64,000 nt of DNA. It comes from a virus. A program made the translations under genes and the position numbers. The stretch spans positions 1 to 64,000 of the IMG/VR virus record IMGVR_UViG_3300029267_002252; one strand, 5' to 3'. Numbering within the stretch: position 1 is the first letter of the stretch; the number at the start of each line of letters is the position of its first letter. Of the stretch, positions 1,931-19,269 are shown piece by piece. The notes beneath the pieces were generated by a model. The model searched no databases, was not told the origin of the DNA, and saw only the letters and a program-made list of their open reading frames with translations.

Positions 1931-2275
1931 ATGGAAGGACCTGGACCTCGGAATAGACCTGAACTGGAAGAATATATTGTTTGGAGCAAACAGAATATTC
2001 GCATTAAAACCGAGCCGGGATTCTTCAAAGGATATCTTGACTGGGTGGAGGCGCACATGGAAGAACTTAAAGACCATGTGCGTCCCACCGGTTGCACTGA
2101 CGCAGTTATTATAATACTTGCTTATGAGTATTATAAGGAGCATCAGATTGACCTCGAAAATAAAGCAAACATGCTGCCTTGTATTGTGCAGAGTATATTG
2201 ATAGACCATATTGAAAAATGTAAGTTACGGTGCTTGATGTATCGCACTTGTTTTGAAGGAGAATTACCATGTTGA
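1931..2275 (+). CDS. hypothetical protein, 114 aa
   Basis: ATG 1931 follows the previous stop by three bases; its last codons overlap the start of the nicotinamidase gene (ATGTTGA), implying translational coupling. The protein is mildly acidic and mostly helical by composition, with four Cys in the C-terminal half (CTD, PCIV, KCK, RTCF). No family recognised. Its coupling to pncA makes it worth considering with the NAD genes, but nothing in its sequence shows an enzymatic role. Confidence 0.55.
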   Translation: MEGPGPRNRPELEEYIVWSKQNIRIKTEPGFFKGYLDWVEAHMEELKDHVRPTGCTDAVIIILAYEYYKEHQIDLENKANMLPCIVQSILIDHIEKCKLRCLMYRTCFEGELPC

Positions 2276-2847
2276 TTTTTGTAGACGTGGATACTCAGAG
2301 AGATTTTATGAATGAGGGAGGAGCACTATATGTTCCGAATGCCGAATCTATAAAACCAGCTCTTAAGCGACTGAATGATTATGCTGTCGAGAAAGGCATT
2401 AAGGTTGTGAAGACAATGGACGTTCATTTTGGAACTCCTGCGTATAAAGACGTTGAGGGTGAGCTTGAGGTCAATGGCGGACCGTTTCCTGAGCATTGCA
2501 TGTGCGGAACAGCGGGAGCGAAGTCTATTCAGGAAACTAAGAATAACGACGCAGATATATTCCGCAAGAATACGTACGACGTGTTTGCTGAGAAGGGCGG
2601 CAACGATGAGATTGTCAAATATCTTAAGGATAAGAAAGTCTCTTCAGCCGTTGTTTACGGAGTAGCGACCGATTACTGCGTGAAATCTGCTGTACTCGGA
2701 CTCCTGGAACGTGGAATCGAAGTCACTGTAGTTCGCGATGCTATTGCCGGAGTGGATGAAAAGAGTTCTGACGAAGCTCTTCAGGAGATGGAAGAAAAAG
2801 GAGCCGTAATCGCAGAGCTGGAAGCAGTCACCAAAGGAGAAGAGTAA
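2269..2847 (+). CDS. pncA: nicotinamidase (isochorismatase-like cysteine hydrolase)
   Basis: Deamidates nicotinamide to nicotinate and ammonia, the first step of deamidating NAD salvage; cytosolic. The 192 residues match the family length. The catalytic triad is visible: Asp8 in the D-x-Q-x-D-F motif (DTQRDF), Lys100 in FRKNTYD, and the nucleophile Cys137 in GVATDYCV, which also shows the cis-peptide V-A-T-D signature. Probable metal ligands are Asp51 and His53 (DVHF) and His76 (PEHC), followed by the CGTAGA segment typical of nicotinamidases. Start ATG 2269 has GAAGGAG seven bases upstream and overlaps the end of the preceding gene. The stop overlaps the start of nadE (taATG), so the two are probably translated together. 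A general isochorismatase-family amidase is possible, but the motif set and the nadE/pncB neighbours favour nicotinamidase. Confidence 0.88.
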   Translation: MLIFVDVDTQRDFMNEGGALYVPNAESIKPALKRLNDYAVEKGIKVVKTMDVHFGTPAYKDVEGELEVNGGPFPEHCMCGTAGAKSIQETKNNDADIFRKNTYDVFAEKGGNDEIVKYLKDKKVSSAVVYGVATDYCVKSAVLGLLERGIEVTVVRDAIAGVDEKSSDEALQEMEEKGAVIAELEAVTKGEE

Positions 2848-3584
2848 TGCAATGTGAGAAAGTAGCCGATACCATTCAGCGATGGATGAGGGAGCGAGTA
2901 ACAAAAGCAGGAGCACGGGGAGTCGTAGTCGGAGTGAGTGGTGGAATAGACTCTGCTGTTACTGCCGTCCTATGTAAGCGCGAGTTTGACGAAAATGTGA
3001 CCGGGCTGATAATGCCGTGCGAGTCTTTGGATGATGATGGGATTGACGCAGCTACGCTGTGCAGTACGTTTGCCATCTATTCCGAAGTAGTGGAACTCGG
3101 AGATACGTATAATAGTATGCTCAAGCTGTTCCCGGAAACGTTTGATTGTAAGCTTGCCAGAGCAAATCTGAAATCGCGTCTTCGTATGTGTGCCCTGTAT
3201 TACGTTGCAAACACTTGCAATTATCTTGTAGCCGGGACGAGCAATCTGACTGAGATAGAACTCGGGTATTATACGAAATATGGGGATGGGGGAGTTGACA
3301 TCGAACCTATTGGAAGTCTATATAAGACTCATGTTCGAAAGTTTGCTGAGCATCTCGGAGTTCCCGAGCGAATCCTCACAAAAGCACCTTCAGCCGGATT
3401 ATGGGAAGGGCAGACGGATGAGAAGGAAATCGGAATGACGTATACTCAGATGGATAGGGCGCTAGCAGGAATTGATTGCCAGGATGGGACATTATCGAAG
3501 CGCATGTTGCAGAGCCAACATAAGCGTCAGATGCCTCCGTGTTGTTTTGTTGATGAGAAACTTTTAGGAAGGGTGGACGAGTAA
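2847..3584 (+). CDS. nadE: NAD(+) synthetase, ammonia-dependent type
   Basis: Catalyses ATP-dependent amidation of nicotinate adenine dinucleotide to NAD, the last step of the Preiss-Handler pathway. At 245 residues it lacks a glutaminase domain, so it should use free ammonia, which the neighbouring nicotinamidase also releases. The N-type ATP pyrophosphatase loop SGGIDS lies at residues 31-36. The NAD-synthetase signature GTSNLTEIELGYYTKYGDGG lies at about 130-150, and the later K-x-PSAGLW-x-GQTDE segment closes the substrate pocket in the family. Start ATG overlaps the pncA stop; the RBS AAGGAG lies inside the end of pncA. The last Asp-Glu codons run straight into the next gene (taATG). All motif positions look intact, so I expect an active enzyme. 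Confidence 0.93.
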   Translation: MQCEKVADTIQRWMRERVTKAGARGVVVGVSGGIDSAVTAVLCKREFDENVTGLIMPCESLDDDGIDAATLCSTFAIYSEVVELGDTYNSMLKLFPETFDCKLARANLKSRLRMCALYYVANTCNYLVAGTSNLTEIELGYYTKYGDGGVDIEPIGSLYKTHVRKFAEHLGVPERILTKAPSAGLWEGQTDEKEIGMTYTQMDRALAGIDCQDGTLSKRMLQSQHKRQMPPCCFVDEKLLGRVDE

Positions 3585-3979
3585 TGGAGAAAGTAGTACT
3601 GCCCGAGAGACTTCCTGATGAGACTACTCTCGGAGAGAAGTATAAACCTGCTATGTCGATAATGGACCAAGCTACTGCTGACGAGTATTTCGAAGTGCTT
3701 GTCGAACATACTATGCGAATAGCTGGAAAATCCAGAGTAGAAGCTGAGAGCATAGAGCGGAAAAATCTTGGATACGTAGCGGGATATTATGGCCATGAAG
3801 TACGTCTTCGTGTGGAGAAATTATTTATGTGCCAGCATCCGATGCTAGGGCGTGCATCTGACGGAAGACCTACTCCGGAAGAAGCGTTTGATGCCGGAGT
3901 ACGTTGGGCGGAGCGCCAGAAGAGCGGGAACAAAGTGGAAGCTAACGGGGAATGGTTTAACGACGGAAAAGGAATGTAG
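3584..3979 (+). CDS. hypothetical protein coupled to nadE, 131 aa
   Basis: Start overlaps the nadE stop (taATG). The protein is soluble, with a predicted helical centre (ATADEYFEVLVEHTMRIA, SRVEAESIERKNLGYVAGYYG) and a short conserved-looking HPMLGRASDGRPTPEEAFDAG stretch near the C-terminus. I do not recognise an enzyme family. In particular there is no nucleotidyltransferase motif (G-x-F-x-P-x-H-x-G-H) that would make it the missing NadD. Tight coupling to nadE suggests joint expression rather than proving a joint function. Confidence 0.6.
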   Translation: MEKVVLPERLPDETTLGEKYKPAMSIMDQATADEYFEVLVEHTMRIAGKSRVEAESIERKNLGYVAGYYGHEVRLRVEKLFMCQHPMLGRASDGRPTPEEAFDAGVRWAERQKSGNKVEANGEWFNDGKGM

Positions 3980-3980
3980 T

Positions 3981-4259
3981 ATGGATATCATTATTCATGC
4001 CAAGCCGGAGGTAGTGGAACATAAGACGGCTTCTGATATTTATGAGTGTTGGTGGGACGTGTCGGGAACGCCCCGCCAGTTATTTGAGTATGATAAAGTT
4101 ATGTTTGCGTATAAAGGGAGAGTACATGCTGAAGGGGAAGTTATAAGCATCGAGCCTGGACGTATTGTAATGGAGCCGTTAAAGAAAGTAGATTATAAAG
4201 CTCCGACTAAGCCTCCCACTCGTGGATTTAAGTATGTGCGGGAGAATGGTGATGAGTGA
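3981..4259 (+). CDS. hypothetical small beta protein, 92 aa (possible PUA/ASCH-like fold)
   Basis: ATG 3981 directly follows the previous stop with AAAGGAA upstream; the open frame extends further 5' but that part overlaps the preceding gene and is a shadow. The middle (DKVMFAYKGRVHAEGEVISI) has the alternating pattern of a small beta barrel, resembling the region of PUA/EVE/ASCH-type domains in which a strand pair reads D-x-V-x-F-x-Y-x-G-x-x-x-G-x-A-x-V. This similarity is by eye and weak. Overlaps the next gene by the last codons (gATGAgtga). Confidence 0.5.
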   Translation: MDIIIHAKPEVVEHKTASDIYECWWDVSGTPRQLFEYDKVMFAYKGRVHAEGEVISIEPGRIVMEPLKKVDYKAPTKPPTRGFKYVRENGDE

Positions 4260-4527
4260 GGACCGGACTGCTGGAGAAAGCAGTGAAAATTACGATAAGC
4301 TTTTTGATGATTTTGAGGAAATCATGGCAAAGTCGTATCATGCGATTACTGATGAGGATGAGCTTCGGGATTTTTTCGAATCGATACGCGGCTCAGCCGT
4401 AGCAGCGATTCAGATGCTCGATGACCGTAGTCATATGGATGATGAGGATGATGAGCTGAATCCGGATGATTACGACCCGACTGAAAATCCTCTTGACCCT
4501 AATGATATTATTGATGAAGATTATTAA
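4252..4527 (+). CDS. hypothetical very acidic protein, 91 aa
   Basis: Start chosen at ATG 4252 because GGGAG lies seven bases upstream and the start overlaps the previous stop; an upstream ATG at 4246 is too close to that RBS. The protein is strongly acidic, and its C-terminal third is almost all Asp/Glu/Asn/Pro (MDDEDDELNPDDYDP). Small acidic phage proteins are sometimes DNA mimics or inhibitors of host nucleases and polymerases; here that is only a possibility from composition. No family recognised. Confidence 0.55.
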   Translation: MSEDRTAGESSENYDKLFDDFEEIMAKSYHAITDEDELRDFFESIRGSAVAAIQMLDDRSHMDDEDDELNPDDYDPTENPLDPNDIIDEDY

Positions 4528-4715
4528 TGTTTATCTGCGAGAAGTGTTGCATTGAGAACGGAGTAGATACGTTCTGGTTTATAATGCCGAACGTATCAGT
4601 TGGGCTGTGCGAGTCGTGCAGGAAGACGAAGCCGTGCATAGATTATCACGGTGATTTTCATAGAGCCGAAGAACCGAAAAAGAAGTGGTTCGATAATGAG
4701 AGGAGCGTAGACTAG
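4527..4715 (+). CDS. small Cys-rich (zinc-finger-like) protein, 62 aa
   Basis: ATG overlaps the previous stop (taATG). Two Cys pairs, CEKC at residues 4-7 and CESC at 28-31, are spaced as in treble-clef or zinc-ribbon mini-domains; an extra Cys and His follow (CIDYHGDFH). The C-terminus is charged. Probable zinc-binding protein of unknown role, perhaps nucleic-acid or protein binding. Confidence 0.5.
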   Translation: MFICEKCCIENGVDTFWFIMPNVSVGLCESCRKTKPCIDYHGDFHRAEEPKKKWFDNERSVD

Positions 4716-5329
4716 TGGCTAGAGGAAATACGACGATACCGTCACTGTATACGGCAGAAGAGGTGTGTGCAAAATTGCCAAAAGGATTAAAAGATTTTAT
4801 TAGCCCTTCTCGACTAGTAGAGTTAGCGGAACAAGGTTTTGCGCCATGTGTTAAGGTTGACATTCATCCAGAGCCCGTGTTTGAGTTGAGGGCGATTCGA
4901 GATTGGATAAAAGTTAACATGATTCACCATTACAAAGGTTCTCCGTTACCGCCTAATTGTATACAGGTTATTACGAATAATCCAAGAAGCTTAGTGCCGA
5001 CTGATTTACCTTATGGGATACAGCCGTTATTTGAGTGTTTGAAAGAATATCCGTTAGGGTATTTTCCTCCGTGCGTTTATTTTCTTGTGCGCGATAAGTT
5101 AATAGTGTATGTTGGTCAGACTACGTCGCTGCCTACGCGTATAGAGAGGCATCGTGAAGATAAGGATTTTAATTATGTATTTTATATGCATGTCCCGAAA
5201 ACTAGACTAGACGCAGTGGAATCTGCTTTTATAAAATATTTTAAGCCAGAATATAACGACCCGCGAAGCTACGCGAAAGAGCCTGATATGGGAGTTATTA
5301 ATGAATTTTTGAGTGTAGGTAGTGAGTAA
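4715..5329 (+). CDS. GIY-YIG nuclease domain protein with N-terminal HTH-like region
   Basis: GTG start overlapping the previous stop (taGTG), with AGGAG upstream. The C-terminal half holds a GIY-YIG core: VYFL at residues 121-124 and YVGQT at 132-136 stand for the two tripeptides, Arg142 and His146 follow at the catalytic positions, and Glu169 (DAVESAFIKYF) is the metal-binding Glu, ending with the usual F-x-P-x-Y-N. The N-terminal 65 residues (YTAEEVCAKL ... FELRAIRDWI) read like an excisionase/MerR-type helix-turn-helix, so it probably cleaves DNA at chosen sites. It could be a free-standing homing endonuclease, a DNA-repair nuclease or a host-DNA degrading enzyme; it sits between genes rather than inside one. 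Confidence 0.72.
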   Translation: MARGNTTIPSLYTAEEVCAKLPKGLKDFISPSRLVELAEQGFAPCVKVDIHPEPVFELRAIRDWIKVNMIHHYKGSPLPPNCIQVITNNPRSLVPTDLPYGIQPLFECLKEYPLGYFPPCVYFLVRDKLIVYVGQTTSLPTRIERHREDKDFNYVFYMHVPKTRLDAVESAFIKYFKPEYNDPRSYAKEPDMGVINEFLSVGSE

Positions 5330-5727
5330 TGGATAACAGAGTATTTAATGTCAACGGGACCGGAGACGAACTTCTACTCCAAACGTTGAAGCTCGCGTTT
5401 GCTCAGGAGGGGCGGAACACGACTGCTAATGCGTGGAGGGAAACTAAGAAGCATGGACTCATTTTATGCTGGACTATTCCGGATTCAAGTCCGGAGAATT
5501 ATAACCAGTTCCCGTCAGAGCTTACCGCAGAGGAAGTGTTTCCCGCAGTTAAGAAGTATCTTGAAAAAGCCGAGGATATCGAGATGAAGGATTGGGACGC
5601 GAATGCTGACCATGACGGAAGCAACGAACTCGGATGGAGAGTTTATTGCGAGGACTGGGGGCATGTTGATGACGATTTTTATGCTATCGTTGCTATAAAG
5701 CCCGCCTATATGTGGTACGGGAAATAA
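5329..5727 (+). CDS. hypothetical protein, 132 aa
   Basis: ATG overlaps the stop of the GIY-YIG gene. The protein is acidic with many Trp and Tyr (ENELGWRVYCEDWGHVDDDFYAI; NAWRETKKHGLILCW). It shows an alpha/beta mix with no transmembrane segment or catalytic signature that I recognise. Confidence 0.55.
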   Translation: MDNRVFNVNGTGDELLLQTLKLAFAQEGRNTTANAWRETKKHGLILCWTIPDSSPENYNQFPSELTAEEVFPAVKKYLEKAEDIEMKDWDANADHDGSNELGWRVYCEDWGHVDDDFYAIVAIKPAYMWYGK

Positions 5728-5728
5728 G

Positions 5729-6100
5729 ATGGGAAGTTTTGCCTCATGGAAGTTGCGGAATGCGCGACGTTCTGCGAAGTGCCGCGTCCTCAAGCTTGTC
5801 GAGATATTGTTGAATGACGATGAGCGTATGCAGCAGTTGACTGAGATGTGCTTCACTGCTTTGGAATGTATCGAGGACCCGATATGCGGGAACTGCGGGA
5901 AGCACAAAAGCGAACATCATTTTGAAAACGAGATATTTTGTTTTACAGATACGACAGGAGATATATTTACTGACGAGCCACACGATTATCGTCTGATTGA
6001 TTTTATAGAACACTTTTATCCGGAACAGCATGCTCAGTACATCAAAGAGTGGAAAAGGATGCACGGACATTTAGGAGAAGAAGATGCCAGTGATACGTAG
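5729..6100 (+). CDS. hypothetical protein with Cys/His metal-binding knuckle, 123 aa
   Basis: ATG 5729 follows the previous stop by one base. Central segment ICGNCGKHKSEHHFEN carries C-x2-C plus three His, suggesting a small zinc site. The N-terminus is basic and helical, the C-terminus acidic and aromatic. Overlaps the pncB start by 17 bases, so it is probably translationally coupled to pncB. Function unknown. Confidence 0.52.
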   Translation: MGSFASWKLRNARRSAKCRVLKLVEILLNDDERMQQLTEMCFTALECIEDPICGNCGKHKSEHHFENEIFCFTDTTGDIFTDEPHDYRLIDFIEHFYPEQHAQYIKEWKRMHGHLGEEDASDT

Positions 6101-7262
6101 TTTACTAGATACCGATTTATATAAACTCACAATGATGCAGTTTGCTTTGCATCAGTGCCCTGACGTATACGTGAAGTATGCGTTTAAGTGCCGGACTGAG
6201 GGAGTGGATTTTTCTCCTATTAAAGCCCGGATACAGGACGAGATAAATTACATGAATCGTCTGAGCTTCAAGGAAGATGAGTTGATGTATCTCCGTGACC
6301 TGAGATTTATGAAGCGCGATTTTATTGATTTCCTCAGAACGTTCAAGCTTCATTCAAGATATGTACACATCAGCGATTCTGATTCGGAAGGACTCAGCAT
6401 TATTGTCGAAGGGCCGTGGGTGCAGACTATTTTGTATGAGATTTATATTCTACGTACAGTTAATGCGTTATATTTTGACAACCTTTGTTCTTCTAAAGAC
6501 CGCAACGAGTTATTTAAGGAGGGGGAGAAGAAGCTGTCAGCCAGTCTATCGAACATACAGACGATGAAGGGAGTCAGTTTTGCTGATTTCGGAACGCGAC
6601 GCGCATTCTCTCCGGAATGGCATGCGCGCGTTATAAAGTTGCTGACTCAGCCTGAGATATTCCCCGGATTTATTGGGACGAGTAACGTCCTATTTGCAAA
6701 GGAGTACGGACTTAAGCCTATCGGAACGATGGCGCATGAAGTATTCCAAGTATGCCAAGCATTGACGAAGCCGGAATGGAGCCAGCGGTACGCGCTCCAG
6801 ACGTGGGCTGACGAGTATCGTGGCGACCTGGGGATTGCTTTGTCGGACACCCTAGGATTGCAGAAATTCCTCAAAGACTTCGACATGTATTTTGCAAAGC
6901 TGTTCGATGGAGTTCGTCAGGATTCCGGGAGCCCAACTGACTGGGTAGAGAAAGTCATCCGTCATTACGAAGATATGGGAATCGACCCCACAACGAAGAG
7001 CGCTGTATTCAGTGATGGATTGGATTTCAAGAATGTTGCCAAGATTCATACCTATGTCCGGGGACGTATAAAAGATGCTTATGGAGTTGGGACTCATTTG
7101 ACAAACAACCTCGGGCCAGAACCGATTCAGATTGTAATGAAAGTTATTGAAGCCGGCAGAGACCCCGAGAATCTTCAGCCTGTAGCAAAGCTGTCCGATT
7201 CTACGGGGAAGGAGATGTGTCGGGATAAGGATTATGTGGACTATTTGAAGAAAGTGATATGA
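6084..7262 (+). CDS. pncB: nicotinate phosphoribosyltransferase
   Basis: Joins nicotinate and PRPP to make nicotinate mononucleotide, the committed step of the Preiss-Handler route, fed by the nicotinamidase encoded 3.2 kb upstream. The 392 residues match PncB length. Visible family blocks are: N-terminal LLDTDLYKLTMMQFAL; FGTRRAFSPEWH; GTSNVLFAKEYG; GTMAHEV with the His that is phosphorylated in ATP-coupled members; LSDTLG; and the phosphoribosyl loop FDGVRQDSGSP, where most homologues have DSGDP. The C-terminal LSDSTGKEMC resembles the family's KLSD segment. ATG 6084 has AGGAGAAG upstream. The stop TGA overlaps the ATG of the next small gene. No truncation is seen. No NadD (nicotinate mononucleotide adenylyltransferase) is visible in the window, so that step would need the host enzyme or a gene elsewhere. 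Confidence 0.92.
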   Translation: MPVIRSLLDTDLYKLTMMQFALHQCPDVYVKYAFKCRTEGVDFSPIKARIQDEINYMNRLSFKEDELMYLRDLRFMKRDFIDFLRTFKLHSRYVHISDSDSEGLSIIVEGPWVQTILYEIYILRTVNALYFDNLCSSKDRNELFKEGEKKLSASLSNIQTMKGVSFADFGTRRAFSPEWHARVIKLLTQPEIFPGFIGTSNVLFAKEYGLKPIGTMAHEVFQVCQALTKPEWSQRYALQTWADEYRGDLGIALSDTLGLQKFLKDFDMYFAKLFDGVRQDSGSPTDWVEKVIRHYEDMGIDPTTKSAVFSDGLDFKNVAKIHTYVRGRIKDAYGVGTHLTNNLGPEPIQIVMKVIEAGRDPENLQPVAKLSDSTGKEMCRDKDYVDYLKKVI

Positions 7263-7410: not shown

Positions 7411-7602
7411 ATGAGTTTGTATAATTGGAGTTGGAAAGACCCGTTGTGCTGGATGGCTGTTGCGGGACCGCTGTTTATTTCTGTTCTTATTTTGTCCGCG
7501 CTTTTATATGGAGCTTGGAAGCTCGGGTGGAAAGCGGGATGGGCAGCACGTCATCAGGTGGAAGTTGAGCATATCGAAAAACGCAGTAATCAGGAGAAAT
7601 GA
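7411..7602 (+). CDS. small single-pass membrane protein, 63 aa
   Basis: Start set at ATG 7411 just after the previous stop. Residues about 12-36 form one hydrophobic helix (WMAVAGPLFISVLILSALLYG) with small residues, followed by a basic/amphipathic tail (WKLGWKAGWAARHQVEVEHIEKR). This topology (short exterior, membrane helix, charged interior tail) fits a small phage inner-membrane protein. It is not a convincing holin or spanin and no lysis partner is next to it. Confidence 0.5.
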   Translation: MSLYNWSWKDPLCWMAVAGPLFISVLILSALLYGAWKLGWKAGWAARHQVEVEHIEKRSNQEK

Positions 7603-7605
7603 TTT

Positions 7606-8028
7606 ATGCCTATAACGAAAGAGGAGTTTATTGAGAAAGTTGGTCGGGAACCTACTGAAGATGAATTATCACGAGTTAATTGTGAGATTGTCGGAGTACC
7701 TGGGCATGACCATTGTGGGTGGTGTGAGGAGCACGATAAGCCTCGGATAGTATGTAAATGCATTGCCGGAGATAATATCTACATGCATTCAAAATGCTGC
7801 GGCGCTCATTGGGAGCTTGTAAAGCATAACAATATAATCGGATTGTATTGCGCTAAGTGCTTTAAGTCGATAGGGGATGAGTTCAAAGTTATCATAGTTC
7901 CCAAGAAGCCGAAAGTGCCTCAAGCCCCGTCTCAGCACGCAGCGCCTCCGAAGGATATCAAGGTGGACGAACCTCCGCAGGACAAAAGTATTCCGGAGAA
8001 GGAATCGCAAGATGAAGCCGATTCTTGA
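7606..8028 (+). CDS. hypothetical zinc-binding protein, 140 aa
   Basis: ATG 7606 with AGGAGAAA upstream. The middle holds many Cys/His (HDHCGWCEEHDKPRIVCKC, KCCGAHWEL, YCAKC), enough for one or two zinc sites of the zinc-ribbon kind. The C-terminal 40 residues are Pro/Lys/Glu-rich and probably disordered. The last 17 bases overlap the NADAR gene. Family unknown. Confidence 0.55.
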   Translation: MPITKEEFIEKVGREPTEDELSRVNCEIVGVPGHDHCGWCEEHDKPRIVCKCIAGDNIYMHSKCCGAHWELVKHNNIIGLYCAKCFKSIGDEFKVIIVPKKPKVPQAPSQHAAPPKDIKVDEPPQDKSIPEKESQDEADS

Positions 8029-8563
8029 ATTCAAAGGAAAGTACTTTTTCCTGTCAAACTTTTACGAGATGGAGTTTGAGATGGACGGAGAGCTGCTTAA
8101 GTCCGGGGAACATGCATACCAGCGTGAGAAGACGTTGGACGCCGAGCGTCGCCAAGATATCGTAGACGCACCATCACCAGGGTCCGCGAAAAAGCGTGGG
8201 AGGAGAGTTATTCTTCGTGATGACTGGGAATGCATAAAAATACCGGTAATGGCTAAGGTTTTGCATTCGAAATTCAGTTATCCGGAAATGGAGCGCCGGC
8301 TGCTTTCTACCGGGGATTCGCTGCTTGTTGAGGGGAATACCTGGGGAGATGCTTTTTGGGGGTTTGACCTTATTCGAGGGTTCGGTCAGAACATGTTAGG
8401 ACGCCTTCTGATGCAGCTCCGTAAATCGAGACGTGATACTAGCCTTAAAGCGCGGTATGACCGCATAGCCGATTCTGAGTGGTTTAAGGAGCATTATAGC
8501 GATGTTTCGCTCGGAGACGGGATACCTGTCGATTATGGATATAGTGATATTTTTGATGATTGA
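8012..8563 (+). CDS. NADAR (YbiA-like, DUF1768) domain protein
   Basis: NADAR domains bind NAD/ADP-ribose-type ligands; characterised members include N-glycosidases of riboflavin intermediates (YbiA) and enzymes that remove ADP-ribose from DNA guanine, serving as antitoxins to DarT1. The 183 residues show the family blocks in order: FFLSNFYEMEFEMDG (12-26), S-x-EHAYQREK (31-40) with the conserved Glu-His-x-Tyr-Gln, APSPGSAKKRGR (53-64), DDWECIKIPVM (70-80), LLSTGDSLLVEGNTWGDAFWG (97-117) and GFGQNMLGRLLMQLR (123-137). Because it lies near NAD salvage genes, I infer a role in handling ADP-ribosylated substrates or NAD breakdown products during infection; which of the known activities it has cannot be read. 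Its stop is followed at once by a parS palindrome. Confidence 0.88.
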   Translation: MKPILEFKGKYFFLSNFYEMEFEMDGELLKSGEHAYQREKTLDAERRQDIVDAPSPGSAKKRGRRVILRDDWECIKIPVMAKVLHSKFSYPEMERRLLSTGDSLLVEGNTWGDAFWGFDLIRGFGQNMLGRLLMQLRKSRRDTSLKARYDRIADSEWFKEHYSDVSLGDGIPVDYGYSDIFDD

Positions 8564-8579
8564 TGTTTCACGTGAAACA
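8564..8579. promoter_or_regulatory. exact consensus parS (ParB-binding) palindrome
   Basis: TGTTTCACGTGAAACA, a perfect 16-bp palindrome (18 bp if the flanking A/T pair is counted), is identical to the canonical bacterial chromosomal parS site bound by ParB/Spo0J. It occupies the leader between the NADAR stop and the AGGAGG of the next gene, 28 bases before that gene's ATG. A ParB-like gene starts at 9209. The sequence match is direct; that it works as parS is inference. Confidence 0.85.
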
Positions 8580-8591
8580 TAGGAGGTTCAG

Positions 8592-9089
8592 ATGAACGAG
8601 AGAGATGTTATAAAAGAGACTCTTAAGCATATTTCAAGCGTATGCTGTAAGATTTTGAAGTTCTGTAATCGCATGCATATGAGAGCGTATCATCATGATG
8701 ATAGTAAGCTGGAAGAGCCGGAGTTTGAGACGTTTCTCAAATATACTCCAAAACTACGCGGTATGACGTATGACGTCAATCCTGACAGTGAGTATCAGAA
8801 GTGCTTAAAGGAGATGAAACCAGCCCTGGACCATCATTATGCGAATAATGCGCACCATCCTGAGCACCATGAGAAGGGGATTGAGGACATGACCCTTCTG
8901 GATGTTACCGAGATGCTTTGCGACTGGTGGGCTGCGACAGAGCGCCATGCTGATGGGGATATAATGACGAGTATCGAAAAGAATACCGAGCGTTTCGGAT
9001 TATCTCCGCAGCTTGCTAAGATATTAGCGAATACGATTATTGAACTCAAGAATGACCTCGTTACGCATAAACCGGAAGACGTCGCGTAA
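8592..9089 (+). CDS. DUF5662-like (HD-domain-like) protein, 165 aa
   Basis: ATG with a perfect AGGAGG five bases upstream. The His/Asp pattern HHDDSKL (34-40), DHHYANNAHHPEHH (80-93) and DVTEMLCDWWAATERH (104-119) matches phage-common DUF5662 proteins, which look like small HD-type metal-dependent phosphohydrolases. Substrate unknown; nucleotide or signalling-nucleotide hydrolysis would be the natural guess, stated only as inference. The leader contains the parS palindrome. It is the last gene before the regulatory gap at 9090-9208. Confidence 0.65.
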   Translation: MNERDVIKETLKHISSVCCKILKFCNRMHMRAYHHDDSKLEEPEFETFLKYTPKLRGMTYDVNPDSEYQKCLKEMKPALDHHYANNAHHPEHHEKGIEDMTLLDVTEMLCDWWAATERHADGDIMTSIEKNTERFGLSPQLAKILANTIIELKNDLVTHKPEDVA

Positions 9090-9208
9090 ATTTATGCGGT
9101 CGTTAAAATCGGTATGCATAAAATAGTATTTTTTATTTTTAGGTATGCATTCAATATGTGACAAAAATGTCACCAATGGCGGTGCAATCGATTGCAAAAG
9201 GAGGCAAT
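9090..9208 (+). promoter_or_regulatory. leader of ParB-like gene: direct repeats and palindromes
   Basis: The 119-base gap holds a direct repeat GGTATGCAT at 9111-9119 and 9142-9150 (31-base period, so the two sites face the same side of the helix), an inverted repeat GTGACA-AAAA-TGTCAC at 9158-9173, a perfect 14-bp palindrome at 9183-9196, and AAGGAGG at 9198-9204. This arrangement is typical of an operator region; no clear -35/-10 pair is seen, although the AT-rich stretch 9117-9140 could hold one. Confidence 0.5.
9183..9196. promoter_or_regulatory. palindrome TGCAATCGATTGCA upstream of ParB-like gene
   Basis: Perfect 14-bp palindrome ending two bases before the Shine-Dalgarno sequence and starting 26 bases before the start codon. 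A near-identical site lies at 49760 and a related one at 44839, each 29 bases before a start codon. Confidence 0.5.
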
Positions 9209-9973
9209 ATGGCAGACGAAGTTAAGAATAACGTAGAAGATGTGGTCAATATCCCGATTGAGAAATTAATCAAAGCTGACTGGAATCCGCAAGTACAGTC
9301 AACTGAGACGTTTAACGAACTGGTAGCTGAGATTGAATCTGACGGATTTGATGAGCCTCTTGTCGTTATCAAGCATCCGGATAAAGAGGACCGGTTTCTG
9401 ATTGTCGCCGGGAATCACCGGTACGACGCGGGGAAAGTCATCGGAATGACCGAATTACCCTGTATTATCAAGGATTGGGACGAAGAAGAAGCCAAAATCA
9501 AAGCCGTACGTCGCAACATCATCCACGGAGACCTGGACGAAAGACGCTTCAGCACCCTTGTAAACAGCATTAAACGCCGTGAGAAGATAACTGAGGACGA
9601 AGTCGCCAAGAAAATGGGATTCGCCAGTAAAGGTGAGTTTGATAAGCGGTATCGCAAGGAAGAGATAGAAAAGCGCGCAAAAGAGCGTAAGGAAGCTTAT
9701 TCTCATGACGATATCCCCAAAGAACTACAGATGGTCGATAATGTTACGGTGGCAGTCAACGATATCTTCAGTAATCATGAGGGAGATAGCATTGACCGGA
9801 GTTATCTGTTCTTCATGTACAAGAAGAAGATGCATCTCATCGTGACGTGCGATGACGCACTCGCGAAGACTGTATCAAAAACCGTGGGACACATCAATGA
9901 TAACTCTATGGACGCGGCTGAGTTTTTCAAGGCAGTGCTTGAAAAAGCAGTGAAGGAGTCGTCTAAAAAGTGA
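9209..9973 (+). CDS. ParB/Srx-like domain protein
   Basis: Start set at ATG 9209 because AAGGAGG precedes it by four bases; the longer frame from 9158 runs through the palindromes. The 254 residues begin with a ParB N-terminal domain: IPIEKLIKADWNPQ, LVAEIESDGFDEPLVVI, and AGNHRYDAGKVIGM, the counterpart of the G-E-R-R-x-R-A CTP/DNA-binding box of ParB. Residues about 125-155 (KITEDEVAKKMGFASKGEFDKRY) sit where ParB has its helix-turn-helix. The C-terminal 100 residues are not the usual ParB dimer domain and are unrecognised. It may be a DNA-binding partition or regulatory protein acting at the nearby parS, or a ParB-type nuclease/regulator of the packaging genes. The exact parS 630 bp upstream favours the first, but this is inference. 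Confidence 0.75.
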   Translation: MADEVKNNVEDVVNIPIEKLIKADWNPQVQSTETFNELVAEIESDGFDEPLVVIKHPDKEDRFLIVAGNHRYDAGKVIGMTELPCIIKDWDEEEAKIKAVRRNIIHGDLDERRFSTLVNSIKRREKITEDEVAKKMGFASKGEFDKRYRKEEIEKRAKERKEAYSHDDIPKELQMVDNVTVAVNDIFSNHEGDSIDRSYLFFMYKKKMHLIVTCDDALAKTVSKTVGHINDNSMDAAEFFKAVLEKAVKESSKK

Positions 9974-9983
9974 CGGTTTCCGG

Positions 9984-10010
9984 AAAAATGAAAAAAATTT
10001 CATTTTTTTC
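9984..10010 (+). terminator. AT-rich hairpin with T-run after ParB-like gene
   Basis: AAAAATGAAA (9984-9993), loop AAAA, TTTCATTTTT (9998-10007) with further T residues. The stem contains few G/C pairs, so it is a weak intrinsic terminator at best; the same A/T tract could act as an UP element for the promoter that starts one base later. Confidence 0.4.
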
Positions 10011-10039
10011 TTGACAAAATTTAGTCTATATGCTATACT
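10011..10039 (+). promoter_or_regulatory. sigma70-type promoter of the packaging/structural operon
   Basis: -35 TTGACA (10011-10016), 17-base spacer, extended -10 TGc-TATACT (10031-10039). This is a near-perfect housekeeping promoter preceded by an A/T tract. Expected start near 10046, 45 bases before the terminase small subunit GTG. Confidence 0.8.
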
Positions 10040-10042
10040 GCT

Positions 10043-10075
10043 TGTGAATGTCCGGATATTGAAATCACATTCACA
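10043..10075. promoter_or_regulatory. inverted repeat at the transcription start (possible operator or leader hairpin)
   Basis: TGTGAATGT (10043-10051) and ACATTCACA (10067-10075) form a 9-bp inverted repeat with a 15-base spacer, covering the expected +1 of the promoter. The location fits a repressor operator; as RNA it would form a hairpin just before GGGAGGA. Confidence 0.5.
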
Positions 10076-10090
10076 GGGAGGACGTCCGAC

Positions 10091-10642
10091 GTGGCAGAAA
10101 AAGACAAAGATGGTGCTTGGTTTGATGAAAAAGCCGACGCCGTAATGTCCCCCGAGCAGAAAAAAATTCAGTTACGCAGAGAAACAGTCTTCGAATTGTA
10201 TTATATGCGTAACATGTCACAAAGAGCAATCGCGAACGTCGTGACCTGCCACTACAACACAGTGGGTAGTGATTTGAAATACATTCGCGAGCACATGGCT
10301 AAGAAGCATGGACATGGTGATGTTGACGTTCAAATTTTTGAAACGTGTGAACGAATGCAAGCAACCATGTCTGAACTATGGATGAATTATACTGCTGCTA
10401 AGAAGGATATTGATAAGCAGCGTTACTTAGAATTATTTCATAAAGTTCAGAAGGACCTCGCCGCATTCAAGTTGGATGTGGGGTTGATGCCACGAGCAGC
10501 TTCCCGCTCGAAGATTGAAGTTATAGCGAAGGAAGTCCAAGAGATGTCCGAGGCTGAACTGCTATCTCAAAGAGATAGATTGGTTCAACGTATAACGAGC
10601 GGGGAGTTTGACGAGGGTGCCGGACAAAACTTCAACAATTGA
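10091..10642 (+). CDS. terminase small subunit (probable)
   Basis: GTG start, GGGAGGA at 10076-10082. The 183 residues carry an N-terminal helix-turn-helix (ETVFELYYMRNMSQRAIANVV, then HYNTVGSDLKYIRE, about residues 31-62) followed by a long helical region and a C-terminal EVIAKEVQEMSEAELLSQRD segment, the layout of small terminase subunits, which recognise packaging sites on the concatemer and load the large subunit. It lies directly upstream of, and overlaps, the large terminase gene. The assignment rests on architecture and position. Confidence 0.7.
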   Translation: MAEKDKDGAWFDEKADAVMSPEQKKIQLRRETVFELYYMRNMSQRAIANVVTCHYNTVGSDLKYIREHMAKKHGHGDVDVQIFETCERMQATMSELWMNYTAAKKDIDKQRYLELFHKVQKDLAAFKLDVGLMPRAASRSKIEVIAKEVQEMSEAELLSQRDRLVQRITSGEFDEGAGQNFNN

Positions 10643-13439
10643 GTCCCTTCATGGGTCAGCGGAAAAAAGTGATGCGCTAGAAGCTCTGCGTGTCATGGAG
10701 AGCCGTCTTCTTGAAATAAAGAAAGTGCGCTCACCCCTGGAGCATGGATTTGCCGACTTGCTCGGCGAAGAACTCGTTAACAAACGACACACCGAGTCAG
10801 ATAAAGAACACGCACTTAGACAACAGCAAGCCATCTATGATTTTGTATCGTCAACACTTTATTTAGTCAAAGATGGAAAACGCCAATACATTAAACTAGT
10901 CCCTGAAGCACGTCGTCTTATCGCTGACATTTTTTACGAACGTGTTAATAAAGCTATCCTCTGGAAATCTCGCGGCGGAGGAGGAAGCACATCAGCCGCA
11001 GTACTCATCTTTTTGATGATGGTTTACAAGTCAAAAGAGTTCACCAACCTTGCTGGTTCTGGTAGTCAGGCTCGTTCAATTTATGAAAAAGTTGTCGAGT
11101 TTTGTAGTTGTAACCCCCAGGTTTATCAGTATCTTATAGATGGTGACCCTTTGATATCCAGAACGCATTTTTATAATGGAGCAAAGCTCCATTGTATCAA
11201 TGCGACCGATAAGCAGGTCCGGAGTCGTCACGATTCCGGTCTTATTATTGATGAGGGGTGTTTACTCCCAGGTTCGAAAGTAATTACAGAGCGTGGGATT
11301 ATTAACGTGGAAGATGTTGTTCCAGGAGATTGTGTAGTCAATCAAGATGGAATTATAACTTCTGTTAAGAATGTATGGAGCAAGGATTGGGATAATCGAG
11401 TAGTAAATATATCACTTAATGGATGGTCTACAGGATTAGAGTTGACTCATGACCACAGAGTAAAGATAATTCGAGGACTCGATAAAGGAAATCCAAAAAG
11501 AAAAGATTCTGTTAACGAGTCTAGTGCTGAGTGGGTTCACGCCGAAGATATAAGTGATAGAGATTATGTCCTCATTCCAAAAATAAAGACGAGCGATATA
11601 GATGATTGTATACTCGCTGATACATACGACGGAGGGAAGTGGCTTGGATATTGGTTGGGGGACGGCTGGACCGGTAAACAGCGTTCAAGAGGAATTTATG
11701 TCGTATTCAATTCTAAAGATAAGCGTAATATAGATGAATATGTATCAATAAGTAAAGATTTGTTTGGGCGTGAGGTTTGCTTTGATAATTCGTCAGTTGA
11801 GAATAGAATTAATACTGATACTGCCTTATTTACTCATAAGGAATTAGCAGATTTTCTCGATACTACTTTCGGAACAAAGTCTACAGAAAAAGGAATGCCT
11901 TTTGACTTTATAGCTGGGCAATCTAAAGATTTTGTCCGTGGAGTTATAAGCGGACTTATAGCTTCCGATGGAACCGTATGGGAAGGGAAAGCCTCTTCAG
12001 GAGGAGTTTGCAAAAGAGCCTCGATACAGACCTCATCAGAAGCCCTGGCAGCTTCTATATTTACATGTCTGGCTAAACTTGGAGTAGCTGCTTCTTATAG
12101 AGAGCGTCCGGCGAAAATATCTAATATACGTGGTAAAGAGTACTGTACTAAAGAATCATGGGTTATTGATATAAATGGAAAGGCAATGAGCTTATTTACA
12201 GATACCGATGATTCTGATAGAAAGCAGAAGGCTTTTAATTCATGGGTGGAGATTGATAATTATATTGCTGTCCCTGTTAAAAGCGTAGAGTCTAGGCATT
12301 ATTCCGGAGAAGTGTGGGATATAGAAGTCAAAGACGGTGAATCATTTATGATGATGAATGCTGTTGTGCATAACTGTCAGGAAGACTTGAAAGCCGGCGA
12401 AGTGATGAAAACAGCTCTCCAGAACGCACTTACTCAGCCGGAACATCTTATCCTCATACTCAGTACGTTTCATCATCCTGAAGGATTTTTCCAGGAGTAT
12501 TGGGACGACGCAGAGACTCATGGATTTACTAGATATAAATGGTCTGTGTACGACACGATGGTCAAGTGTGAACTTGATATCGACTGCGCCGACTGTTATT
12601 TGTCTGAGGTAGTGAATGAACACGATGAGCGCGGACGCGTAATCGGAACGACCGTAAAAGGATGCAACGGAACTGCGCGGAAAGCAGAAGGTTACCAGTC
12701 GTTTGAAGCTGTATGTGATATTAAAAAAGTAAATGAGGGTTCGAGCGTTTATACAGTCGAGTTTGAATGCGAGCGCCCGAAATTTTACGGAAGCATTTAT
12801 GACATTGAAGCTTTAGCGGAATCGGAGTGGGAAGATATTACATGGTATGAAGAGATTGAGAAATCAGTAGGACTGGACTGGGGTTATGTAGGACAGACGG
12901 CAATATGCATGACTGTTCGAAGTGAGATAGGTGTCGGAGTTCTCGAGACAGCATGGTTTCATGAGCAAAAAATCGGGGAGATTATCGGATACCTGAATAA
13001 ACTTAGAGAAGAGTACGGTAACTTTGTAGTGTTTGCCGACTCATCGGACCAGTTCAGTAATCGCGAGCTGCATGAAGAAGGGTTCAAAGTAATTCCTGTT
13101 GTTTTTAAGAAATGGAAAGAGTTCGGAATACAAAACGTATCGAAGTTCCTTACTACCGGACGTCTTCAATTTCTTAAAGACGGAGAAGGTAATGACCAGT
13201 TACTTTCTCAGTTGAGGAGATACCGTGCTGACGGAAACGGTAAGCCGATAAAAAAGGATGACCACGGACCTGATGCTCTGATGTGTGCTATGCTTAACTG
13301 GAGATATTTTGAAATGTTTGCTGGCTCTCCGAATCTGAGGAAGATGCATCCGGAGCAGTACCAGGATAAGGACGGCTCGATTGATGGAGAGCAGAAAAGA
13401 AGCAAAATCGACGCCAATCAGCAAGTAATCTTAATTTGA
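10617..13439 (+). CDS. terL: terminase large subunit, interrupted in frame by an intein
   Basis: The packaging motor: ATPase plus RNase H-like nuclease that cuts concatemers and drives DNA into proheads. The precursor is 940 aa; removing the 372-aa intein leaves about 568 aa, normal for TerL. The ATPase Walker A region reads KSRGGGGST (coded at 10965-10991), with the Lys early as in deviant terminase P-loops, and Walker B is LIIDE (11241-11255), where the intein is inserted. The nuclease domain shows GLDWG (near 12870), FADSS (near 13034) and DDHGPDALM (near 13257), the acidic triad. Start uncertain: GTG 10617 has GGGGAG ten bases upstream, while TTG 10608 is too close to it. Both overlap the small subunit gene. 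Confidence 0.93.
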   Translation: MPDKTSTIESLHGSAEKSDALEALRVMESRLLEIKKVRSPLEHGFADLLGEELVNKRHTESDKEHALRQQQAIYDFVSSTLYLVKDGKRQYIKLVPEARRLIADIFYERVNKAILWKSRGGGGSTSAAVLIFLMMVYKSKEFTNLAGSGSQARSIYEKVVEFCSCNPQVYQYLIDGDPLISRTHFYNGAKLHCINATDKQVRSRHDSGLIIDEGCLLPGSKVITERGIINVEDVVPGDCVVNQDGIITSVKNVWSKDWDNRVVNISLNGWSTGLELTHDHRVKIIRGLDKGNPKRKDSVNESSAEWVHAEDISDRDYVLIPKIKTSDIDDCILADTYDGGKWLGYWLGDGWTGKQRSRGIYVVFNSKDKRNIDEYVSISKDLFGREVCFDNSSVENRINTDTALFTHKELADFLDTTFGTKSTEKGMPFDFIAGQSKDFVRGVISGLIASDGTVWEGKASSGGVCKRASIQTSSEALAASIFTCLAKLGVAASYRERPAKISNIRGKEYCTKESWVIDINGKAMSLFTDTDDSDRKQKAFNSWVEIDNYIAVPVKSVESRHYSGEVWDIEVKDGESFMMMNAVVHNCQEDLKAGEVMKTALQNALTQPEHLILILSTFHHPEGFFQEYWDDAETHGFTRYKWSVYDTMVKCELDIDCADCYLSEVVNEHDERGRVIGTTVKGCNGTARKAEGYQSFEAVCDIKKVNEGSSVYTVEFECERPKFYGSIYDIEALAESEWEDITWYEEIEKSVGLDWGYVGQTAICMTVRSEIGVGVLETAWFHEQKIGEIIGYLNKLREEYGNFVVFADSSDQFSNRELHEEGFKVIPVVFKKWKEFGIQNVSKFLTTGRLQFLKDGEGNDQLLSQLRRYRADGNGKPIKKDDHGPDALMCAMLNWRYFEMFAGSPNLRKMHPEQYQDKDGSIDGEQKRSKIDANQQVILI
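11259..12374 (+). mobile_element. intein with LAGLIDADG homing endonuclease inside terL
   Basis: Translates to 372 residues running from Cys1 (CLLPGSKVITERGIINVEDV, block A) to the C-terminal His-Asn, with Cys as the +1 extein residue (VVHN|C). Block B has the T-x-x-H motif (LELTHDHRV). Two LAGLIDADG motifs are present with their acidic residues (LGYWLGDGW near 11643 and SGLIASDGTV near 11950), so splicing and homing both look intact. It sits right after Walker B (LIIDEG|CQED), a conserved site typical of intein invasion. Codon use is richer in ATA and AGA than the flanking exteins, consistent with horizontal entry. Confidence 0.93.
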
Positions 13440-13453
13440 TATGGGAGACTAAT

Positions 13454-14050
13454 ATGGAGAGTAGACTGAAAACTTTTAAGCCGATGCATGACGCGGTTAT
13501 CAGTCCATGCTGTCTCCGGCACGTAGAACGTAACCACGGAATATATCCCGGAAAGGGATTTACGTGTTCCTCCTGTGGGACGTTTTTGAAAAGTGCGTGG
13601 CTCGACTTTAATAAGTCATTGAGTTACAGTGCCGACAGCATTTACAGACATGATAATAAGATTGAGGACTTTGTTCCGCTATCAGTTATCGTGCTTAGGA
13701 ACTACTCGGAAACTCGTCGTGAGTATGACAAGAAGTTCCGTGTTCTTCGCGAATCAGTTACCGCAGGTTTGGATGATGCCGAAGTTGTGGACAGGGACGA
13801 AGGACGTGAGTTCATCCTTAATTCTAATATTAAGGTGGACAGTATTCGTATTATCAGGCTCGGTCGTGATATCTACGCCCTTATCGGGAAGATGTCTGAA
13901 GAAGACCGGAAAGAAAAAGATGTAAGCGGAATAACATTCGCTTTTGGCGGTGGAGGAAGAGGTCGTAAGAAAAACATGGCATCATTTGCCATGACCGGAG
14001 GGGAAGTTCCCCCGAATCCGCAAGTACGTAACGTACGCCTCTTCGGATAA
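13454..14050 (+). CDS. hypothetical protein with zinc ribbon, 198 aa
   Basis: Start set at ATG 13454 (GGGAG six bases upstream); the open frame runs slightly further upstream. N-terminal CC-x14-19-CSSC arrangement (SPCCLRH ... FTCSSCGTFL) suggests a zinc ribbon. The middle is globular, and the C-terminus holds a Gly/Arg/Lys-rich stretch (FGGGGRGRKKN). Placed between terminase and portal, so possibly a packaging or portal-associated factor; family unrecognised. Confidence 0.55.
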   Translation: MESRLKTFKPMHDAVISPCCLRHVERNHGIYPGKGFTCSSCGTFLKSAWLDFNKSLSYSADSIYRHDNKIEDFVPLSVIVLRNYSETRREYDKKFRVLRESVTAGLDDAEVVDRDEGREFILNSNIKVDSIRIIRLGRDIYALIGKMSEEDRKEKDVSGITFAFGGGGRGRKKNMASFAMTGGEVPPNPQVRNVRLFG

Positions 14051-14091
14051 TATTTATTTTTTGTGGCGTTTTTTACGAGGTAGTATAAGGT

Positions 14092-15915
14092 ATGGCTGAA
14101 CCTGGAACAAGTACACTTGAAGGTGTGGAGAAGGGTACTGCCAAGGATGCCGGGATAGTGTACGAAGCTGTTGTCATTGAAGGCAACGATTTCGGAGGCA
14201 TCTTTGAGGAGAAATCTTTGTCGCAACCCACTGAGGGTTCGACGCAGAAGAAACCCGCCCAGCAGCAGACCAAGACGTTCAAAGAGAACGAAATAGCGAA
14301 GCCTACTTTTGATATTGATTTGTGGGCTTCGATGATGGAGTTCAATACTCGTCTTGCTCAGTGTGTGCGGTTGTATTCGCGCAATACTGTGGGGCTGGGG
14401 TGGAAAGTTACTTCTACAGTTACTATTAATCGGGAAGCACCCGATGAGCTTAAGCAGCGTTATGAGCTTGAAAAAATGATGTTACTAGACTTGTTGTTAA
14501 AACCGAATACGGATACGCCGTTTTCTGATTTATGCAATATGTTCATGACTGACAGATTGCTTATTGGAAATGGTTATATAGAAGTTGTCCGTAATCGAAA
14601 AGGTGACATCGTAGAGTTATATCATGCTAAATCCAGAACAATTCGTGTTCTTAAGAACGGGAATGGTTTTGTCCAGTTACGTGGAAACACTCTTCGTTAT
14701 TTCAAACATTTCGGAGAAACCCGTAATATGGATATGGACACCGGGGAACTCGGTGGAAGCGTGGGAATTAAGAAGCGCGCTTCAGAGATGATTCATTTCA
14801 AAGAATACAATACTGTAGATGACTTTTATGGAGTACCTCGTTATAAATCAACCGCACCTGCTATAATGGGTAATAGGGCTGCGGCTGAACGTAACCTGAA
14901 TTTCTTTCGTAACGATGCTGTTCCGAGAATGGCTCTTACAATATCTGGTGGGAAGCTTTCGCAAGATTCTGTGGACACAATTCAGAAATTCTTCAAAGCA
15001 TCCAAAGGAGTTTCTAATGCGCATCGCATGATGATTATTCAGGTGGATAGCGAAGCTACTCAGTTCACATCTCAAGCAAAGCCGGACGTTCAGTTGAAGC
15101 CGTTGACCGTTGGTGAGACGGATGACGCCAGTTTTCAGAATTATCGCATGCAGAACGATGAGGAAGTTCGCGAAGCATTTGGGATTGCGAAAGCGTTTTT
15201 TACTCCCGAGGACGTCAATAAAGCAGTTGCATATGCTACCAAGGAAATTACCAATGAGCAGGAGTTTGACCCGACGCAGAAACAGGTAGAGCACACATTT
15301 TACCATACGGTTATCATGGATATGTTCTCAAGTTCCGAAGGAGTGAATCAGAAAGACTTCTATTCAGTAATTAATAAAGCCAAGCAGTTTTTAGATGACG
15401 GAGTTCTCGAGCGCATACAGCGCAGACATTTCGGCGGCATATTCTTTTCGAAGTCCTCCCTGTCTGAAGAAGAGATGTGCCAGCATGAAACGCGTCGTAA
15501 GCGCAATGATTATGTTATCGATGTACTTCAGGCTACTGGACTTATGAAGTTTAATCGGATTCGTAAGGATGATGAGAATAATGATATACTTATGTTCGAG
15601 TCGCTCCCGTTAGTAAAGCTTGAGTTCGAGCGTCCGAAAGTTCTGGATGAAGCCGATAAAGCAGAAGTTCACGAGATTTATCTCGAGAATGGAGTTGTAA
15701 CTCCTAATGAAGTTCGTCAGGAGTTGGGTTTAGAACGTTATCCCGATGACCTCGATTTCGGCGATACTCCGATTCCATATTTCGATAAGGTCGGAGTCTA
15801 TACCGGTACAGGAAGTCAGGCGGTAGAGCCTGCTGCTGAACCGGACGATGAAGATGACGAGGATGGAACGGATGTAGACATTAATCCGGATGAAGGAGAT
15901 AATAACAATGAGTAG
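14092..15915 (+). CDS. portal protein
   Basis: Dodecameric ring at the capsid vertex through which DNA is packaged and to which the tail attaches. 607 aa. Typical HK97/PBSX-type blocks: N-terminal helical SMMEFNTRLAQCVRLYSRNTVGLGW, FMTDRLLIGNGYIEVVRN, ELYHAKSRTIRV, GVPRYKSTAPAIMGNRAAAERN, FFRNDAVPRMALTISGGKLS, and FQNYRMQNDEEVREAFGI followed by the long stem helix region. The N-terminal 65 residues are low-complexity and the C-terminal 30 are highly acidic, both probably disordered. The stop overlaps the start region of the protease gene by eight bases. Confidence 0.92.
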   Translation: MAEPGTSTLEGVEKGTAKDAGIVYEAVVIEGNDFGGIFEEKSLSQPTEGSTQKKPAQQQTKTFKENEIAKPTFDIDLWASMMEFNTRLAQCVRLYSRNTVGLGWKVTSTVTINREAPDELKQRYELEKMMLLDLLLKPNTDTPFSDLCNMFMTDRLLIGNGYIEVVRNRKGDIVELYHAKSRTIRVLKNGNGFVQLRGNTLRYFKHFGETRNMDMDTGELGGSVGIKKRASEMIHFKEYNTVDDFYGVPRYKSTAPAIMGNRAAAERNLNFFRNDAVPRMALTISGGKLSQDSVDTIQKFFKASKGVSNAHRMMIIQVDSEATQFTSQAKPDVQLKPLTVGETDDASFQNYRMQNDEEVREAFGIAKAFFTPEDVNKAVAYATKEITNEQEFDPTQKQVEHTFYHTVIMDMFSSSEGVNQKDFYSVINKAKQFLDDGVLERIQRRHFGGIFFSKSSLSEEEMCQHETRRKRNDYVIDVLQATGLMKFNRIRKDDENNDILMFESLPLVKLEFERPKVLDEADKAEVHEIYLENGVVTPNEVRQELGLERYPDDLDFGDTPIPYFDKVGVYTGTGSQAVEPAAEPDDEDDEDGTDVDINPDEGDNNNE

Positions 15916-19219: not shown

Positions 19220-19269
19220 TTTGATTTTACTTTTTATTCCTAATTGCTTTTTGAAAAGGAGTTTATAGG

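Follow-up and report, generated by a model that had tools for sequence, protein, structure and literature searches.

A putative deamidating NAD salvage gene set in a large tailed phage and its recurrence among viral genomes

Bases 1-64000 of the IMG/VR virus record IMGVR_UViG_3300029267_002252, which totals 101,531 bases, carry a pncA-like gene, nadE and pncB on one strand; this whole 64,000-base stretch is called the window below. The phage to which it belongs probably possesses, judging from the sequences of the three products, a salvage set for nicotinamide adenine dinucleotide (NAD) of the deamidating, Preiss-Handler type. Bacteria commonly defend themselves against phages by depleting NAD. 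Known phage restoration of NAD starts from ADP-ribose or runs via nicotinamide mononucleotide (NMN), and the deamidating route, if true, would be a third chemical answer that uses different enzymes. The broader reading, to which we assign a probability of roughly one half, is that a third, widespread phage NAD-reconstitution pathway exists, in which a PncA-PncB-NadD-NadE cassette of large phages (NadD and NadE forming a single fusion protein in one of them) restores NAD from the nicotinamide freed by Thoeris, SIR2, TIR or CBASS NADases, while some phages leave the NadD step to the host. As a predicted gene set the deamidating phage pathway has good support; its use against defences that deplete NAD is plausible.

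Predicted enzymes of the cassette

The three genes are as follows, with the reactions predicted for their products. PRPP is phosphoribosyl pyrophosphate, NaMN nicotinate mononucleotide and NaAD nicotinate adenine dinucleotide.

2269..2847, + strand: pncA-like gene, predicted nicotinamidase, 192 amino acids; nicotinamide to nicotinate and NH3 (PF00857, 1ilw, AlphaFold2 model)
2847..3584, + strand: nadE, ammonia-type NAD(+) synthetase, 245 amino acids; NaAD, NH3 and ATP to NAD (TIGR00552, PRK13980)
6084..7262, + strand: pncB, nicotinate phosphoribosyltransferase, 392 amino acids; nicotinate and PRPP to NaMN (TIGR01514, PRK05321)

All three are intact open reading frames (ORFs), found where the original prediction had placed them, and profile, PDB and motif matches assign each to the expected enzyme family. 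A purine-rich ribosome-binding site precedes each gene (GAAGGAG, AAAGGAG and TAGGAG, respectively), and the start of nadE lies within the stop of pncA (TAATG), an overlap of 1 nt. The original prediction had also described the three genes as adjacent, which has to be corrected: pncB lies 2.5 kb downstream of nadE, past about seven small ORFs, and the locus is therefore one co-directional gene block rather than three adjacent genes. Predicted promoters and terminators are as numerous in shuffled sequence as at the locus, so the limits of an operon cannot be drawn from them.

The identity of PncB follows from its equivalog scores, from the His of GTxAHE and from the Ser of the GTS motif. It scores 483.9 bits against PRK05321 (cut-off 379) and 413.7 bits against TIGR01514 (cut-off 269.55), and matches PDB entry 1yir with an E-value of 3.2e-90. 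H218 of the GTMAHE motif and the GTSN motif (T199-S200-N201) are invariant in a 10-member alignment. A Ser in place of Asp within the GTS motif discriminates NAPRT from NAMPT, and GTS is present in 67 of 70 viral PncBs. NadE, likewise, is assigned to the ammonia-dependent NAD(+) synthetases by its scores against TIGR00552 (245.9 bits, cut-off 63.65) and PRK13980 (257.4 bits, cut-off 255), by the SGGxDS loop at S31-S36 and by its having no glutaminase domain; its PDB match is 3p52 (E 1e-43).

The pncA-like product matches the Isochorismatase family PF00857 at 97.8 bits (cut-off 27), and the PDB sequences closest to it are those of nicotinamidases (1ilw, E 3.8e-24). An AlphaFold2 model with a predicted local distance difference test score (pLDDT) of 93.6 finds the nicotinamidase of P. 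horikoshii as its top fold match (E 8.6e-17, template modelling scores 0.83/0.89). Within this isochorismatase fold the protein has the Asp/Lys/Cys catalytic triad and the Asp-His-His metal site: Asp8, Asp51, His53, His76 and Cys137 are invariant across 33 viral homologues, and Lys100 aligns with a Lys in 1ilw. We nevertheless use the label PncA-like, because the score against the NCBIfam nicotinamidase equivalog NF008623 lies under its cut-off (78.9 vs 174 bits); two relatives in the same cassette position score above it (219.7 and 188.0 bits). The prediction of a nicotinamidase is well supported by sequence and structural model together. With these three identities, the phage-encoded deamidating route of the original prediction gains the footing of two equivalog matches (NadE and PncB) and of the fold and residues of PncA.

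The order of the reactions catalyzed by PncA, PncB, NadD and NadE is established enzymology, from which we infer the course that the phage set would take. PncA would convert nicotinamide to nicotinate and NH3, PncB would join nicotinate to PRPP to yield NaMN, the NadD of the host would adenylate NaMN with ATP to NaAD, and the phage NadE would amidate NaAD to NAD with ATP and NH3, the latter possibly released by PncA. In the many relatives with a NadD of their own, the whole pathway would be phage-encoded. Presumably expressed during infection, the set would most likely help by raising NAD and so maintaining its level in a cell whose own gene expression is failing and whose NAD is being cleaved to nicotinamide, chiefly through NADase defences.

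Because NadE lacks a glutaminase domain, ammonia released by PncA could feed it, as the original prediction had proposed, and such recycling possibly takes place in the window's phage. It cannot be taken to apply to every relative, since nadE reading frames of more than 330 amino acids occur in 7 of 46 viral relatives (one of the seven being a NadD-NadE fusion).

The NadD step and recurrence in other viruses

A longer IMG/VR record, of 183,648 bases, takes in all 101,531 bases of the window's record at 100% identity. An exact 123-base repeat is common to both ends of the longer record, which for this reason appears to be a complete, circularly assembled genome of ~183.5 kb. The window is part of a tailed phage; its record encodes portal, tail sheath, baseplate J and base V proteins, along with a weak TerL match. 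PncB is the sole NAPRT-family match in the complete genome.

A search of the remaining genome for NadD, proposed along with the original prediction and run with TIGR00482, found none in the complete ~183.5-kb sequence, the best score being 8.6 bits (E 0.21) on the coaD gene. That gene, at 24491-25027 of the genome (L047:4491-5027, minus strand), was considered as the missing NadD and rejected: its product is the coenzyme A enzyme CoaD (phosphopantetheine adenylyltransferase; TIGR01510, 170.1 bits, cut-off 103.3), the only PF01467 protein of the genome. The phage thus encodes three of the four enzymes of the deamidating set, and it likewise has no counterpart of the NAMPT plus NMN adenylyltransferase pair known as NARP2, CoaD being its only PF01467 enzyme. 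Since the apparently complete genome has no NadD, conversion of NaMN to NaAD must be supplied by the host; to our knowledge, NadD is nearly universal in bacteria. The expectation that only NadD was missing, to be provided by the host or by another phage gene, is thereby narrowed to the host.

An alignment search with PncB found 252 viral PncB loci. Fifty PncB-bearing viral contigs of at least 32 kb served as a co-occurrence sample, and matches over cut-off were found to NAD synthase in 34, to isochorismatase in 31 and to a PF01467 enzyme in 28 of them. Among RtcB-bearing control contigs, on average shorter than the PncB contigs, NAD synthase was found in 2 of 39, as weak and partial matches, and isochorismatase/PncA in 0 of 39 (Fisher p 7e-10 and 4e-11, respectively). 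The co-occurrence pattern suggested for survey by the original prediction is also seen at closer range and in diverse viruses. Within 10 kb of 70 non-identical viral PncB loci, pncA occurs at 49, nadE at 40, both at 37, and both together with an adenylyltransferase (nadD) at 19, this last count taking in some weak-scoring NadM-like or CoaD-like proteins, such as a NadM-Nudix-like enzyme in locus L159 and a CoaD-like one in L183. NadD that is true by profile score, or near the cut-off, is found in L153, L178, L180, L181, L188, L209, L211 and L213, and NadD is also listed as present in L199.

Gene order and spacing in these loci are operon-like. The genes lie on a single strand in 61 of 64 multi-gene loci, overlaps of 1-30 nt are frequent, and some loci are compact pncA-nadE-nadD-pncB operons. 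In G007, pncA, nadE, pncB, a radical SAM gene and NadD fall within ~4 kb, and the NadD is a true one by TIGR00482 (134.8 vs 112.45 bits). A 440-residue reading frame in IMG/VR 3300031998_000310 (L180:8020-9342, plus strand) joins NadD (residues 6-191, 136.9 bits) to NadE (residues 200-431, 165.5 bits), both above cut-off, and apparently specifies a bifunctional enzyme for the last two steps. The flanks of L178, L180, L188, L199 and L211 encode phage DNA polymerase, primase-helicase, RNA ligase and endolysin. A gene for a PnuC-like nicotinamide mononucleotide transporter (phrog_1880) flanks one of these five cassettes. Isolated phages have comparable sets: Bacillus phage G encodes isochorismatase, PncB, NadD and NadE at 201653-207372, the set lying within about 7 kb, and Sinorhizobium phage Phosso a hydrolase, an adenylyltransferase, PncB and NadE at 268773-274414.

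Recent pick-up of the cassette from a host chromosome was considered and rejected, because its base composition matches the window (G+C fractions of 0.47 and 0.46 vs 0.45) and the window's PncB branches among viral PncBs. That protein is at most 54% identical to other viral PncBs and about 50% identical to betaproteobacterial ones. In the PncB tree, whose inner support is weak and whose bacterial members were sampled by similarity and so are near relatives, the viral sequences need 3 label changes, vs 33 in shuffles.

Relation to described NAD pathways and possible roles

NARP1 is described as rebuilding NAD in two steps from ADP-ribose pyrophosphate and nicotinamide (PMC12774641), by means of Adps and Namat. 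NARP2 consists of a phage NAMPT and an NMN adenylyltransferase, with NadV, NadM and NadR known from KVP40-type phages. The set described here resembles NARP1 in that NAD is rebuilt from products of NAD cleavage, but among the matches found no cassette enzyme is of NARP1 type. Like NARP2, it would salvage nicotinamide to NAD by phage-encoded means, using PRPP and passing by way of a mononucleotide and an adenylyltransferase. It differs in that nicotinamide is deamidated first, so that the intermediates would be nicotinate, NaMN and NaAD instead of NMN, in that NadE is needed last, and in that PncB is a nicotinate and not a nicotinamide transferase. The set is therefore distinct from both systems as the literature describes them, in enzymes and in its deamidated intermediates, as the original prediction had held.

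The enzyme families and reaction order are those of bacterial deamidating salvage (PncA-PncB-NadD-NadE, that is, the Preiss-Handler pathway preceded by nicotinamidase). Here, however, they form a phage-borne, co-directional cassette, without NadD in the window's phage and with a NadD-NadE fusion in one relative. Bacillus phage G (gp275-gp283) and Phosso come closest in content, with an isochorismatase or hydrolase, PncB, a NadD- or NadM-like adenylyltransferase and NadE within 6-7 kb, but their sequences are distant (PncB 33% identical in Phosso and 27% in phage G). GenBank annotates both sets piecemeal; both include a Nudix gene, and that of phage G also KptA.

For Xanthomonas phage X1, pncB, nadM, nadD and nadE are listed, and help against NAD depletion, or counter-defence, is suggested (PMC13384950, 2026). 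In that phage, the transferase beside nadE is annotated as a nicotinamide phosphoribosyltransferase and pncA was not seen in the stretch, so that X1 stands closer to NARP2 plus NadE; phmmer found no match to its NAMPT in the sequence flanking 80 PncB loci. A survey of jumbo phages (PMC7824862) and one of viral NAD-ADP-ribose systems (PMC9503650) name NadV/NAMPT, NadM and NadR and leave NadE and PncA unmentioned; surveys that seek NAMPT, NadM and NadR would for that reason miss the present set. From snow phages, NAMPT, nadM and nadR are reported, and separately nadE (PMC11097641). We found no description of PncA-PncB-NadD-NadE as a phage pathway in the open-access literature, an absence that is not proof. 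Phage NAD salvage is thus already known, while its deamidating version looks undescribed.

NADase defences cleave NAD and release nicotinamide, and the pathway, which starts from this compound, would suit a cell undergoing such cleavage. Several points weigh against the proposed salvage set and its benefit. The window's phage is without NadD and depends on its host; 14 of the 70 viral PncB loci have no partner gene nearby; the RtcB control contigs were shorter on average; some IMG/VR contigs may be miscalled as viral, flanks having been checked for five loci; and inner support in the PncB tree is weak. PncA, PncB and NadE are, moreover, common host enzymes, and the gain from them may therefore be one of general metabolism.

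The main rival is general metabolic support, in which NAD is raised for replication irrespective of defence, for instance in hosts that are limited for precursors or that have PncB or PncA repressed. We regard it as a serious but clearly less probable account, and the two may hold together. Other cofactor genes occur in this phage group (CoaD in the window's phage is one), no tie was found between the cassette and any specific defence, and NAD salvage in KVP40 is described as helping progeny production, as cited in PMC11097641. On the other hand, a start at nicotinamide, through PncA, is what would be expected under NAD cleavage, whereas PncB alone would suffice for nicotinate uptake; pncA accompanies 49 of the 70 PncB loci, and the window's phage is rich in counter-defence-like genes. 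The pattern across viruses makes it testable whether phage NAD genes are retained for defence or for growth.

A further possibility, which we think unlikely, is that the cassette feeds NAD consumers of the phage itself, such as DNA ligase A, ADP-ribosyltransferases, KptA or sirtuins, instead of countering the host. A KptA-like phosphotransferase does sit inside the cassette of Bacillus phage G, and G007 encodes an NAD-dependent ligase, but such a ligase is absent from 9 of 10 other records tested and from the window's phage, for which supply of an NAD-dependent DNA ligase was accordingly rejected. KptA-like genes lie near 0 of 80 PncB loci, and no ADP-ribosyltransferase, SIR2 or KptA is among the Pfam matches listed for a large part of the proteins of the window's phage. 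Very improbable is a third alternative, in which the PncA-like protein is some other amidase of the functionally mixed isochorismatase superfamily and the three genes are not one pathway: its score under the nicotinamidase cut-off would allow this, but nicotinamidases are nearest to it in both sequence and fold, it has D8, K100, C137 and the metal ligands, its cassette-position relatives exceed the cut-off, and pncA co-varies with pncB and nadE across viruses.

Neighbouring and accompanying genes

Between nadE and pncB, and just beyond pncB, the window contains the following features.

3584-3979, 3852-4259, 4222-4527, 4527-4715, 4715-5329, 5329-5727 and 5729-6100, + strand: about seven small ORFs from the ORF list, without known NAD role
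8012..8563, + strand: NADAR-domain protein (ADP-ribose chemistry), 183 amino acids (PF08719, 75.8 bits, cut-off 35.1; phrog_1017)

The ORF at 4715-5329 has a weak GIY-YIG match (20.8 bits), under the cut-off of 22.6. The NADAR gene begins 750 bases past pncB; its motif LVEGNTWGDAFWG suggests the catalytic Glu of the YbiA type, and it has a weak PADLOC match (PDC-M42C). Among 80 loci, a homologue lies near only two other PncB types, for which reason a fixed place in the cassette was rejected; the protein is a possible associate of it.

Both the small genes beside the cassette and a recurrent radical SAM gene offer further leads. Members of this radical SAM family occur near NAD cassettes in several phages (L056:12786-13658, minus strand; L059:6704-7540, plus strand; L153, L202, L206, L209, L216 and L217). 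The gene adjoins pncB and nadD in G007, is near pncA in G003, and in the window's phage lies near coaD (L047:6168-6992, minus strand).

Elsewhere in the window, a large terminase-like ORF (10608-13439, 943 amino acids) has an in-frame, intein-like insert with matches to splicing and LAGLIDADG homing endonuclease domains. Genes for a CobT-VWA protein, a MoxR-type AAA ATPase and RecA also belong to this phage (L001, within 7492-19294, plus strand).

The ~183.5-kb genome has ~45 tRNA genes, nearly all grouped around the record ends, together with genes for a release-factor-like protein with an RF-1 domain and an RlaP RNA repair nucleotidyltransferase (L046, L054 and L055). It further encodes RtcB, a Ro-like TROVE protein and an HD domain protein. 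A metallo-beta-lactamase gene of the Apyc1 (anti-Pycsar) family (L046:8993-9874) overlaps the RtcB RNA ligase gene (7846-9015), both on the minus strand; the Apyc1-family protein, RtcB and RlaP are likely counter-defence or repair genes of the same phage. A second radical SAM protein (L054:16184-17020, minus strand) matches viperin (pVip) at 51 bits.

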